A stretch of DNA of 64,000 nt from Bacteroidales bacterium (lineage in GTDB: Bacteria; Bacteroidota; Bacteroidia; Bacteroidales; G3-4614): the NCBI GenBank assembly GCA_015061035.1, contig SUXK01000004.1, positions 1 through 64,000 on the forward strand, read 5' to 3'. The notes beneath the pieces were generated by a model, which had not been told where the DNA came from, did not search any database, and saw only the letters and a program-made list of their open reading frames with translations. This document shows, piece after piece, positions 12,054 to 16,495 of the stretch (position 1 is the first letter of the stretch; the number at the start of each line of letters is the position of its first letter). A program made the translations under genes and the position numbers.

Positions 12054-12827
12054 CTACTTCAATTTCCCTCGAATTGCATTCAGGTATTTTATCATTCCCG
12101 ATGTGTCTTTCTCTTCTACCATCTTTTGTAATATTGACAACTGTTTTTGTATATCTTCTAATTGTTGTGGTGTATGTGGATTGAAAAGAATTTCGGTTAA
12201 TAGATAATCATCTTCTGACAGCAATCCTCGTGCTATATTCATATGCTTTTTGAATGTTGTTCCCGGTGCATCTTGATGCTTCATTACACTTGCAAATACT
12301 AATGTTGATGCAAAGGGTATTGATAGCGAGTAGGCTATTGTTTCATCGTGTTCTTGGAATGTGTACTCAAATATATTCAAATGTAATTTGCTATACAAAT
12401 CCTTGAAAAAGACTTTTCCTAAATGGTCACTCTCTGAAATGATTATTGTATTTTGGGTACTTAAATCACTTAGATTGGCAAATGTTGGTCCGAACATTGG
12501 GTGTGTTGAAACAAACGGACGCCCTGCATCTTTATAAAACTCGGGCAAACCTGTTTTTACTGATGCAATATCGGAAATTATACATCTTTCGGGAAGGTAT
12601 GGTATTACCTCTTTATAGGCTTCTATGGTATATTTTACCGTTACTGCATTTATAAGCAACTCTGGTTCAAACTCTTTTATCTCCTCTAATTTTGAAAATC
12701 GTAGGGTATTGAATGTAAATCGTAAGCGTGCAGGATCTTTATCGAACATTGCCACTTCATGCTCAAAACTTAACACATCGGCAAAGAACGATCCCATCTT
12801 GCCTGCCCCCATTATCAATATTTTCAT
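12054..12827 (-). CDS. tyrA: Prephenate dehydrogenase
   Basis: MKILIMGAGKMGSFFADVLS (NAD-binding) and PFVSTHPMFGPTFANLSDLS, in a TyrA/aromatic gene context. Confidence 0.88.
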   Translation of the reverse strand: MKILIMGAGKMGSFFADVLSFEHEVAMFDKDPARLRFTFNTLRFSKLEEIKEFEPELLINAVTVKYTIEAYKEVIPYLPERCIISDIASVKTGLPEFYKDAGRPFVSTHPMFGPTFANLSDLSTQNTIIISESDHLGKVFFKDLYSKLHLNIFEYTFQEHDETIAYSLSIPFASTLVFASVMKHQDAPGTTFKKHMNIARGLLSEDDYLLTEILFNPHTPQQLEDIQKQLSILQKMVEEKDTSGMIKYLNAIRGKLK

Positions 12828-12872: not shown

Positions 12873-13946
12873 TTATTCTTTACCTTTCAATATCTCAACT
12901 TGTTGACGAACACTCTCCTCGTGTATGGCTTGCATGATTGTCATCATAAAATCGCCTTTCATCTCGGCTGACTCGGCTTGCTCTACGCGTTTTTTCAGTA
13001 TCTCATCGTAACGTGCTGCCTGAAGTACTGTCATTTTATGTTCTTTCTTAAATCTTCCTATCTCGCGAGATACACGCATACGTTTTGCCAAAAGGTCTAT
13101 TAATTCGTTATCCAACACGTCAATTTGTTTACGAAGGTCTCCTAAATCTTCGGTTGTTGTGTGTTGGTCACGTATAATCAAATCATCTAATATCAAATCT
13201 AATGTTCCAGGTGTTATTTGTTGGTTTTTATCGCTCCAAGCATAGTCGGGAGAACAGTGTGACTCTATTATAAGTCCGTCAAATCCCAAGTCCATTGCTT
13301 GTTGTGATAGTGGAGCGATAAAATCACGTTTTCCGCCTATATGGCTGGGATCACTAAATATTGGTAAGTTTGGTAAACGGCGACGCAACTCAATGGGTAT
13401 ATGCCATTGTGGTGAGTTACGATATACTTTTTCATCGTAACTACTAAATCCGCGATGTATTGCTCCTATTTTGCGTAGTCCTGCATTGTATATACGCTGT
13501 ATTCCTCCTATCCAAAGTTCTATGTCAGGGTTTACCGGGTTTTTAATCAATACTGGAATGTCTGCTCCTTTTAGTGCATCGGCAATCTCTTGCATTGCAA
13601 AGGGGTTTGCTGTTGTTCTTGCTCCTATCCACAACAAATCTACTCCGTGTTTTAATGCTTCAAGTACATGATATTGGTTTGCAACCTCTGTTGCTACATA
13701 CATTCCTGTCTCTGCTTTTACCTTTTTAAGCCACAAAAGTCCTTCGCTACCTACTCCTTCAAAACCTCCTGGTTTTGTACGGGGTTTCCATATTCCTGCA
13801 CGGAATATTTTTATTCCTCGCGATGCTAAATCTTTTGCTGTTTCCATTACTTGGTCCTCTGTCTCTGCACTACAAGGTCCTGCTATTACAAGTGGTCGTT
13901 TTGTGTCTAAACCCGGTAGGGTGATTGGTTCAAATTGCATTTCCAT
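12873..13946 (-). CDS. Bifunctional 3-deoxy-7-phosphoheptulonate synthase / chorismate mutase
   Basis: PLVIAGPCSAETEDQVMETAKDLASRGIKIFRAGIWKPRTKPGGFEG (DAHPS) and C-terminal LRKQIDVLDNELIDLLAKRMRVSREIGRFKKEH (chorismate mutase). Confidence 0.95.
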   Translation of the reverse strand: MEMQFEPITLPGLDTKRPLVIAGPCSAETEDQVMETAKDLASRGIKIFRAGIWKPRTKPGGFEGVGSEGLLWLKKVKAETGMYVATEVANQYHVLEALKHGVDLLWIGARTTANPFAMQEIADALKGADIPVLIKNPVNPDIELWIGGIQRIYNAGLRKIGAIHRGFSSYDEKVYRNSPQWHIPIELRRRLPNLPIFSDPSHIGGKRDFIAPLSQQAMDLGFDGLIIESHCSPDYAWSDKNQQITPGTLDLILDDLIIRDQHTTTEDLGDLRKQIDVLDNELIDLLAKRMRVSREIGRFKKEHKMTVLQAARYDEILKKRVEQAESAEMKGDFMMTIMQAIHEESVRQQVEILKGKE

Positions 13947-13976: not shown

Positions 13977-15140
13977 TTATATTATTGTTTGTATTCTCTC
14001 TTTTGCTTCTTTTAATTTATTTTCTGTTGCACAAAGTGATATGCGTATAAATTTGTCTCCTTCGCTTCCGAATATCATTCCCGGTGTTATGAATACTCTT
14101 GCGTCATATAATATTTTATCGGCTAACTCTGCTCCATCTTTATATTTATCAGGGACTTTTGCCCATAGAAACATTCCTCGTTGTGCAGGGTCAAATTTAC
14201 ATCCTAACATTGTTGCTATCTCTTCGGCTAATACTCTTCGTGGTCGGTATATTGTATTTATCTCTTCGTACCACTCCTTGCCAAGTGATAATGCTTTTGA
14301 TGCGGCTATTTGCATTGAACGGAATGTTCCTGAATCAATATTACTTTTTACCCTCAATACCCAAGCAACAAATTGTGGATTTGATGCCAACATTCCTACT
14401 CGCCAACCTGGCATATTGTGCGATTTACTCATTGAATTGAGTTCGATACATATATCTTTAGCACCTTCTACTGATAAAATACTTAATGGGTTGTCGTTAA
14501 GAATAAAACTATATGGGTTATCGTTTACTATTACTATGCCATGTTTTTTTCCAAATGCAACCAATTGTTCAAATAACTCTTTTGTGGCTACTCTTCCTGT
14601 TGGCATATTGGGATAGTTTACCCACATTAGTTTTACGTTTGATAGGTCGTTTTTCTCTATCTCCTCAAAATCAGGTAACCAATCGTTCTCTTCTTTTAAA
14701 TTGTAGGTTATTATATTTGCCTCTGCCAAACGACTTACCGAACTATATGTTGGGTATCCTGGATTTGGTACTAATACTCCATCTCCTGGATTCAGGAAAG
14801 CCAGCGATATATGTAATATGCCCTCTTTTGAGCCTATTAGGGGTTGTATCTCGGTTTTTGAATCGAGTTCTACACCAAACCATGTTGAATACCATGCTGC
14901 AAATGCCTCGCGTAGTTTTGCTATTCCTACGTATGGTTGGTATCCGTGTGCTGTATCTTGGGCAGCATCGTTTGACAATGTCTCAATAACTTCTTTGTGT
15001 GGTGGACGGTCGGGACTTCCTATTCCTAAACTTATTATATCCAAACCTCGAGCATTCATCTCTGCCACCTCTTTTAACTTCTTAGAAAAGTAGTATTCGC
15101 TTATTGTTCCTACTCTGTTTGCAGGTTTAATCTCTTTCAT
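13977..15140 (-). CDS. Class I/II pyridoxal-phosphate aminotransferase, first gene of the aromatic operon
   Basis: MKEIKPANRVGTISEYYFSKKLKEVAEMNARGLDIISLGIGSPDRPPHKEV; ELNSMSKSHNMPGWRVGM. The Met at 15140 is preferred because ORF start 15221 would place a terminator inside the CDS. Confidence 0.92.
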   Translation of the reverse strand: MKEIKPANRVGTISEYYFSKKLKEVAEMNARGLDIISLGIGSPDRPPHKEVIETLSNDAAQDTAHGYQPYVGIAKLREAFAAWYSTWFGVELDSKTEIQPLIGSKEGILHISLAFLNPGDGVLVPNPGYPTYSSVSRLAEANIITYNLKEENDWLPDFEEIEKNDLSNVKLMWVNYPNMPTGRVATKELFEQLVAFGKKHGIVIVNDNPYSFILNDNPLSILSVEGAKDICIELNSMSKSHNMPGWRVGMLASNPQFVAWVLRVKSNIDSGTFRSMQIAASKALSLGKEWYEEINTIYRPRRVLAEEIATMLGCKFDPAQRGMFLWAKVPDKYKDGAELADKILYDARVFITPGMIFGSEGDKFIRISLCATENKLKEAKERIQTII

Positions 15141-15149
15141 TGCTTTTTT

Positions 15150-15181
15150 AATAAAAAATCCCGCTCTTTTAAAGAACGGGA
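15150..15181 (-). terminator. Attenuator terminator in the leader of the aromatic operon
   Basis: Minus strand TCCCGTTCTT-TAA-AAGAGCGGGA followed by TTTTTTATT, 10 nt before the aminotransferase ATG. Confidence 0.88.
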
Positions 15182-15227
15182 TATTGTATTTGTTTTTATT
15201 TATTTCTTGTATCTTACACACGCAAAA

Positions 15228-15237
15228 CCCCGCTCTT
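15228..15237 (-). promoter_or_regulatory. Antiterminator strand overlapping the leader-peptide stop codon
   Basis: Minus strand AAGAGCGGGG nearly duplicates the terminator 3' arm (AAGAGCGGGA), so it can pair with CCCGTTCTT instead. Confidence 0.75.
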
Positions 15238-15298
15238 ACTTGATGCTAAAGTAAAAGTAATAATAAAAGTATGCGAATGTTGACATTAAATTTTTCAT
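15236..15298 (-). CDS. Phe/Tyr-rich leader peptide MKNLMSTFAYFYYYFYFSIK
   Basis: ATG AAA AAT TTA ATG TCA ACA TTC GCA TAC TTT TAT TAT TAC TTT TAC TTT AGC ATC AAG TAA, verified codon by codon on the minus strand. Below the ORF-track length cutoff. Confidence 0.85.
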   Translation of the reverse strand: MKNLMSTFAYFYYYFYFSIK

Positions 15299-15333
15299 CT
15301 CTTTTTTTATGCGGTTGTGTAATTTACACCTTG

Positions 15334-15363
15334 CAAAGGTATATAGATTTTTTTTCTTTGCAA
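15334..15363 (-). promoter_or_regulatory. Bacteroidetes-type promoter of the aromatic operon leader
   Basis: Minus strand TTG (15363-15361), 19-nt spacer, TACCTTTG (15341-15334). Confidence 0.75.
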
Positions 15364-15399
15364 ATATTTTGATATTTTTTTTCAATTTTTTTTTGCGAA

Positions 15400-16389
15400 C
15401 TATTCAAATCTATAAATGTTATTTCTTGTTCGTTCTTGCTGTTCTCTTAAATCAAGACGTAATTGTTGAATATAATCTGAAAGATATGCAATCTCGGGAT
15501 CATATACGCTCTTCTTGCGTGAATGGAGTGCAAATGATATACGGGCCCACATTAACGACTTATCAAAATTGTGTTTTATCTCTTCGTACATTGCTAAATT
15601 TGCTGATGTTCGTGCTTGAAATTTCTTTGAACGTTTGTTTTCGTAAAGATATTCCCATATAAATGACGCTTCATCGTATTTTCCTTCTCTCCAAAATTTA
15701 TCTGCTTTTCGCATCATTCTGTTGCCCGAAACAAAATAGAGTCGAACAAAATTTTCGCTACTTGGCATAAATTGTGCCGATGCTACTTTTGCTATATTGG
15801 GTACTAATTTATTTATACATTCATACTGTGATGGTAGTGAATTTATAGCCTCTTCTCGTGTATAACCTGCTCCATTAAATACTAATGTATCGACACACGA
15901 ATATAAGACTATGGTATCATAATTAGGTCGAGCGATAGAGAGTTGTATTTCGGTGGGTACAAACAAATCAACAAAGTGCCAATCTTCATCTATTGTTCCT
16001 GAACGATAATAGGGATTTATTGATACCTTATTTAATGCTATAATATTATTCTCCGATGGACTATACTCTTCTATCATATTCTTAGTTATTAATTGTGAAG
16101 AGGGGGAATCAACAATATACTCTTTTACTATGCAGGGAGACTCTGAAGTGTTTAGTCTGTCAGATATTGCAGCATATATATATTGGGCAACTGAGTCTTG
16201 TATATGCAATACTGTTTGATTCTCTTGTACTGATATTTTGCTTACATTATATAATAAGACTATGGGAGTTGTATCTGAAAGTGCAATATTAGGTGCGTTT
16301 TTTATATTATACTCCACAACTTTCATTGATGTACAACTCATCATTGTTAGTATAATTGTCAGAAACAGATATATAGTTCCTTTTTTCAT
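15400..16389 (-). CDS. DUF6340-like lipoprotein
   Basis: MKKGTIYLFLTIILTMMSCTSMKVVEYNIKNAPNI; lipobox and TPR-like C-terminus. Family call from memory. Confidence 0.7.
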   Translation of the reverse strand: MKKGTIYLFLTIILTMMSCTSMKVVEYNIKNAPNIALSDTTPIVLLYNVSKISVQENQTVLHIQDSVAQYIYAAISDRLNTSESPCIVKEYIVDSPSSQLITKNMIEEYSPSENNIIALNKVSINPYYRSGTIDEDWHFVDLFVPTEIQLSIARPNYDTIVLYSCVDTLVFNGAGYTREEAINSLPSQYECINKLVPNIAKVASAQFMPSSENFVRLYFVSGNRMMRKADKFWREGKYDEASFIWEYLYENKRSKKFQARTSANLAMYEEIKHNFDKSLMWARISFALHSRKKSVYDPEIAYLSDYIQQLRLDLREQQERTRNNIYRFE

Positions 16390-16495
16390 ATTCATTACTT
16401 TGTGTTTTATATCCGAAATTTCCGTTTTATATACACAAAAGTAATGAATATTTTTATTTATAGGTTATTTATGGTTGTTAAATTGAGTATAAATT

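Follow-up and report, generated by a model that had tools for sequence, protein, structure and literature searches.

The aromatic amino acid operon on the minus strand of the window, by which we mean the whole 64,000-nucleotide stretch of DNA that was analysed, appears to be preceded by a transcription attenuator in which a ribosome reads out the levels of charged tRNA-Phe and tRNA-Tyr, a reading to which we give a probability of about 0.92. All its elements, the mutual exclusivity of its two main hairpins and its conservation in relatives can be read directly from the sequence. The features of the leader region and of the operon behind it are as follows.

15361–15364, minus strand: promoter −33 element TTTG, separated by an N19 spacer from TACCTTTG (from sequence)
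15334–15341, minus strand: promoter −7 element TACCTTTG, of the Bacteroidota TAnnTTTG type (from sequence)
15236–15298, minus strand: leader ORF MKNLMSTFAYFYYYFYFSIK*, 20 codons, with stop codon TAA at 15238–15236; an F/Y-rich leader is kept in relatives
15248–15277, minus strand: control codons F-A-Y-F-Y-Y-Y-F-Y-F, 9 of 10 aromatic
15249–15257, minus strand: strand 1, CUUUUACUU, within the final aromatic codons; pairs with strand 2 (−6.6 kcal/mol), a pairing also present in the MFE and centroid folds
15233–15241, minus strand: strand 2, AAGUAAGAG, including the stop codon along with the 5′ half of the antiterminator arm; forms the 1:2 protector/pause hairpin
15227–15237, minus strand: antiterminator arm AAGAGCGGGGU (the 2 of 2:3), with 11 of 11 pairs to 15182–15172 and covariation
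15220–15222, minus strand: candidate RNA polymerase pause, position −1 being C15222 or T15220 (G−10, Y−1, G+1), 11–13 nt past the 1:2 hairpin; putative function
15172–15182, minus strand: terminator 5′ arm (strand 3), ATCCCGTTCTT (from sequence, covariation and pairing energy)
15153–15168, minus strand: terminator 3′ arm (strand 4), AAGAGCGGGAT, at 15168–15158, with the T-run at 15158–15153 (from sequence, fold and covariation)
13977–15140, minus strand: class I/II aminotransferase (PF00155), which heads the operon
12873–13946, minus strand: DAHP synthase/chorismate mutase (PF00793 and PF01817)
12054–12827, minus strand: prephenate dehydrogenase (PF02153)

Most of this layout had been described in the first-pass annotation of the same DNA. 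The Bacteroidota-type promoter (TTTG-N19-TACCTTTG), the 20-codon leader ORF with its nine aromatic codons in a run of ten, the stop-overlapping AAGAGCGGGG and the strong U-tailed terminator ahead of the aminotransferase are all present on the minus strand, essentially where they had been placed, and Pfam agreed with the three downstream genes that had been named. The gap between terminator and aminotransferase, given there as 10 nt, measures 12 nt from the T-run to the ATG at 15140. The promoter type is shared: of 152 elements from relatives, 115 have TAnnTTTG at most 110 nt 5′ of the leader ATG, compared with 10 expected. The leader RNA folds at −37.9 kcal/mol (z = −3.7), a value that none of 200 shuffled sequences equalled, and the terminator is an 11-bp hairpin with a TAA loop followed by six T. 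Its position supports attenuation, since there are few other reasons for a terminator to stand directly between a promoter and a biosynthetic gene. No other short ORF with more than six F/Y per ten codons was found on either strand of the 64-kb window. The single-sequence fold also offered a long-range pairing of UUACACA in the 5′ UTR with UGUGUAA, which we did not use because sequences of the genus do not keep it (UUACAAA in locus L003).

The core of the switch is a segment, AAGAGCGGGGT (15237–15227, minus strand), that overlaps the leader stop codon. It had been proposed to mimic the terminator 3′ arm and so to act as an antiterminator arm, and the pairing bears this out: all 11 of its nucleotides pair with the terminator 5′ arm, giving a long hairpin of −13.2 kcal/mol beside the −15.1 kcal/mol of the terminator. 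The antiterminator and the terminator are mutually exclusive because both use this same 5′ arm. Elements collected from relatives numbered 169 after removal of duplicates and 65 after stricter thinning, and 38 thinned elements were aligned. In these 38 elements the antiterminator helix (columns 44–53 with 114–123) was paired in 82.6% of cells, compared with 36–51% when it was slid, and double-sided changes occurred at nine of its ten pairs; neither the paired fraction nor the covariation score was matched in any of 500 shuffles. The terminator helix was paired in 93.1% of cells of the same alignment, again with 0 of 500 shuffles reaching this level. Moreover, in a register-free test the arm scored 20.1 with its own terminator and 14.3 with that of another element, the standard deviation of the permuted means being 0.28.

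A third hairpin completes the design. The 1:2 hairpin, in which CUUUUACUU pairs with AAGUAAGAG, is present in the fold of the leader RNA of the window and is kept in all seven members of the genus. Across 152 elements its stability was −5.48, compared with −4.28 when synonymous codons were substituted and −3.91 when the order of the aromatic codons was shuffled (Wilcoxon p ∼1e-21, a statistic that ignores relatedness among the elements). When strand 2 was swapped among the 65 thinned elements, the native combinations had −4.88 compared with −3.35 ± 0.20, and 0 of 200 permutations were as low. In the fixed register of the alignment, covariation of the 1:2 helix was not above that of shuffles, and its loop length is variable; the hairpin is nonetheless well supported by the register-free energy tests. 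Since it is conserved, the full classical 1:2 / 2:3 / 3:4 design replaces the 'minimal two-state design' of the first-pass annotation, whose interpretation as a Phe/Tyr leader-peptide transcription attenuator with an antiterminator arm stands. The parts by which an attenuator is recognized are thus found together: an aromatic-rich short ORF, an intrinsic terminator before the first gene, a covarying antiterminator that excludes the terminator, and a 1:2 protector/pause hairpin.

The spacing of these parts is informative. Among relatives, the antiterminator arm starts a median of 11 nt (IQR 10–13) past the last aromatic codon, and the distance between arm and stop codon splits into two groups, with the stop directly 5′ of the arm or at it in 53 elements (the type to which the window's element belongs) and the arm inside the ORF in 99. 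About that ∼11-nt distance would stay free of the footprint of a ribosome whose A site holds the last aromatic codon. This constancy, taken with the footprint, suggests that selection acts to keep the arm immediately beyond a ribosome that has stalled in the run, and not at a given distance to the stop codon. Downstream of the hairpin, we looked at the G−10/Y−1/G+1 pattern, which is the known pause consensus of E. coli RNA polymerase. With this E. coli consensus, the pattern was found 3′ of the G-run of the arm in 71% of elements compared with 34% ± 3.6 after shuffling, and the signal was seen too in elements where that stretch is non-coding. An RNA polymerase pause 11–13 nt past the 1:2 hairpin is hence likely, and it would resemble the pauses of the trp and his leaders.

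These elements suggest the following course of events. Transcription would start ∼30 nt 5′ of the leader ORF, and the 1:2 hairpin would form from the final aromatic codons and the stop-codon region, whereupon polymerase would probably pause 11–13 nt further on and so let the ribosome catch up. When Phe- or Tyr-tRNA is scarce, the ribosome would stall in the aromatic run and break 1:2; the antiterminator arm, which begins just past the footprint of the stalled ribosome, could then pair with the 5′ arm of the terminator (2:3), and the operon would be read. When both amino acids are ample, the ribosome would reach the stop codon and cover the arm, so that 3:4 may form and transcription end before the aminotransferase. 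In this scheme, pausing, the geometry of the footprint and a response to Phe and Tyr are predictions from the sequence.

The first-pass annotation had pointed to relatives as the place to look for the aromatic run and the alternative stems, and both are conserved there, which speaks strongly in favour of attenuation. The element is present in 7 of 7 sampled genomes of the same genus that have an ortholog of the aminotransferase, the window's own genome being counted among the seven. In the order, 97 of 296 sampled genomes have this ortholog. We assembled a set of 177 Bacteroidales loci from most of the upstream regions of these 97 genomes together with 80 named GTDB loci, two sets that overlap somewhat, and searched each for a leader in which ten codons include 5 or more F/Y and for a U-tailed hairpin behind it. 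Both were found in 154 of the 177; among the remaining loci, several are cut at contig ends or have the leader with a terminator missed by the U-run rule (e.g. L012 and L128). The attenuator lies 5′ of pheA where pheA heads the operon and otherwise 5′ of the aminotransferase, and it is present in Bacteroides fragilis, B. xylanisolvens and Phocaeicola vulgatus. A covariance model (R1) was built from the relatives, with the window sequence as one of 38 training rows. Its single credible match in the own genome was the window element (E 8e-12, the window sequence being among the training rows); we rejected its other matches there, which proved to be an ordinary terminator and a tRNA that has a terminator. 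The model matched 82 of 399 genomes of the phylum, and the best 30 of the matches, which were inspected, were nearly all F/Y leaders 5′ of pheA or DAHPS genes. A direct scan upstream of pheA was positive in 20 of 24 sampled genomes of the same class outside the order, and two more of the 24 have the element before DAHPS, which makes 22, compared with 2 of 41 loci outside the class. Thus the element is a trait of the class and is rare elsewhere.

The identity of the control codons follows the product of the genes. Phe and Tyr codons occur together in 150 of 152 elements, where 89% of the run residues are F or Y, and this combination fits an operon that makes both amino acids. One match of the model (L216) lies instead 5′ of a phenylalanine 4-monooxygenase (PF00351; NCBIfam NF008877) and its leader, MKNLNNTYYYYPILTRRIGQ, has Tyr only; in a second genome of that genus the run of the leader, MNFTTAIYYYYPILSLRVES, is without Phe, and in a third genome, from a different genus, the leader 5′ of phenylalanine 4-monooxygenase is Tyr-rich. 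With F and Y before shared genes and Tyr only before the Phe→Tyr hydroxylase, the codons therefore follow the amino acid that is supplied. The loci in question (L216/L317 at 1487–1700, L319 and L320) carry Tyr-only (YYYY) or Tyr-rich leaders and terminators 5′ of a phenylalanine 4-monooxygenase of ∼245 aa, and the three genomes belong to one family of the same class; we regard theirs as a Tyr-specific relative of the attenuator. Before the large (∼590 aa) hydroxylases in the same family of genomes, no F/Y leader was found in nine quickly inspected.

Could the ribosome be held in the leader by something other than uncharged tRNA? An F/Y-rich nascent peptide might stall it on a ligand, either free Phe or Tyr or an inhibitor, as arrest peptides do. 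Such a leader would be short and sit at the same control position, and either route of stalling would throw the same RNA switch. The peptides, however, are conserved in nothing beyond their F/Y richness, as the order and length of the run and the flanking residues vary freely, and nucleotide conservation tracks the pairing, not the peptide; two leaders, moreover, are Tyr-only where the gene product yields Tyr. We therefore hold an arrest peptide to be improbable. Still less probable is a sensor of general translation slowdown, for example by antibiotics, that is indifferent to particular amino acids: given the pairing, any ribosome stalled in the run would antiterminate, but the extreme aromatic enrichment described above is restricted to aromatic genes, and codon identity changes with the product.

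A reading that dispenses with the ribosome is that the hairpin is the ordinary terminator of a small RNA gene and the ORF an accident. A terminated leader would indeed resemble a small RNA in RNA-seq, and promoter and terminator are close together. Against this, the aromatic ORF is conserved throughout the class, the alternative pairing is conserved with double changes, and the element holds a fixed position before genes of the same pathway, so that we give this reading as little credence as the slowdown sensor. Ribosome-mediated attenuation on charged tRNA-Phe and tRNA-Tyr accounts best for these observations.

The kind of mechanism is well known. The attenuators of Gammaproteobacteria (trp, pheA and his; RF01859 Phe_leader and RF00506 Thr_leader in Rfam) likewise have control codons in a short leader ORF, exclusive 1:2, 2:3 and 3:4 hairpins with strand 1 in the control codons, and a U-tailed terminator before biosynthetic genes, and the E. 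coli pheA leader also senses Phe. Unlike them, the Bacteroidia element combines Phe and Tyr codons, has a Bacteroidota promoter and places its antiterminator arm overlapping or near the stop codon; nor is there a sequence relation, since the scores were 26.7 bits (RF01859, gathering cut-off 55) and 30.6 bits against cut-offs of 55, and we rejected these weak Thr_leader and Phe_leader scores as membership because they fall far below the cut-off. Rfam 15, with its T-box and riboswitch families included, gave no gathering-level match in the window or in five relatives. The nearest known kin in the phylum is the Bacteroid-trp RNA motif (RF01692) described by Weinberg 2010 (PMC2864571), which shares the logic of position and differs in its Trp codons and its sequence; its matches, on inspection, show a WWW leader peptide and a U-tailed terminator before a trpB-like gene. 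RF01692 (gathering cut-off 49 bits) matched neither the window element nor the rest of its genome. Its matches at L303–L307 have a conserved WWW/WW leader peptide 5′ of a trpB-like gene, and Bacteroid-trp is therefore itself probably a leader-peptide attenuator.

Earlier statements on the phylum are brief. A transcriptome study of F. psychrophilum devotes one general sentence to strong indications that amino-acid operons are preceded by leader-peptide attenuation (PMC9723704); the mechanism put forward there, on the basis of transcriptome and structure data, is of the same type, and the main text names neither amino acids nor elements, nor was a comparative analysis seen in it. A transcript map of B. 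thetaiotaomicron mentions sORFs reminiscent of leader peptides (PMC7366714), and Naville and Gautheret 2010 wrote that, to their knowledge, leader-peptide systems had not been demonstrated beyond Proteobacteria and Actinobacteria until they presented a case in Firmicutes (PMC2965389). The literature searched, which covers a minority of the subscription journals, yielded no account of such a Phe/Tyr attenuator from Bacteroidota. Within the reach of these searches, the class-wide Phe/Tyr element, which is absent from Rfam 15, is new.

We think it fairly probable, with less assurance than for the window element itself, that Bacteroidia have a widespread aromatic attenuation of their own, in which the end codons also serve as strand 1 of a pause hairpin, a pause would follow 11–13 nt later, the arm keeps a set distance of ∼11 nt to the last control codon and not to the stop, about one locus in ten is tandem, and the mix of codons is matched to the product (Phe and Tyr for pheA and DAHPS, Tyr for phenylalanine hydroxylase). 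The element indicates that ribosome-mediated attenuation, mentioned so far only in passing for Bacteroidia, is a regular device of this whole class, which is dominant in the gut and in the environment, and it gives an exact model missing from Rfam. Because attenuation needs a ribosome close behind RNA polymerase, the element also provides a ready test of transcription–translation coupling and pausing in Bacteroidota, and its naturally occurring Phe-and-Tyr, Tyr-only and tandem forms could be used to probe codon specificity and serial gating.

A few observations concern the neighbourhood. Prephenate dehydratase, which lies 5′ of the aminotransferase in many relatives, stands alone elsewhere in the own genome (G000:C2:4933–5469), and no attenuator was found in the stretch upstream of it (L108). 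The gene 5′ of the attenuator in the window (15400–16395, minus strand) encodes a DUF6340 protein (PF19867). Viral contigs scanned with the aminotransferase gave no match. Two F/Y attenuators stand in series at 15 of 147 Bacteroidales loci, or ∼10% (L020, L023, L034, L037, L045, L047, L067, L068, L076, L077, L081, L083–L085 and L094); the first terminator is usually 10–30 nt from the second leader ATG, and some of the leaders also contain Trp.
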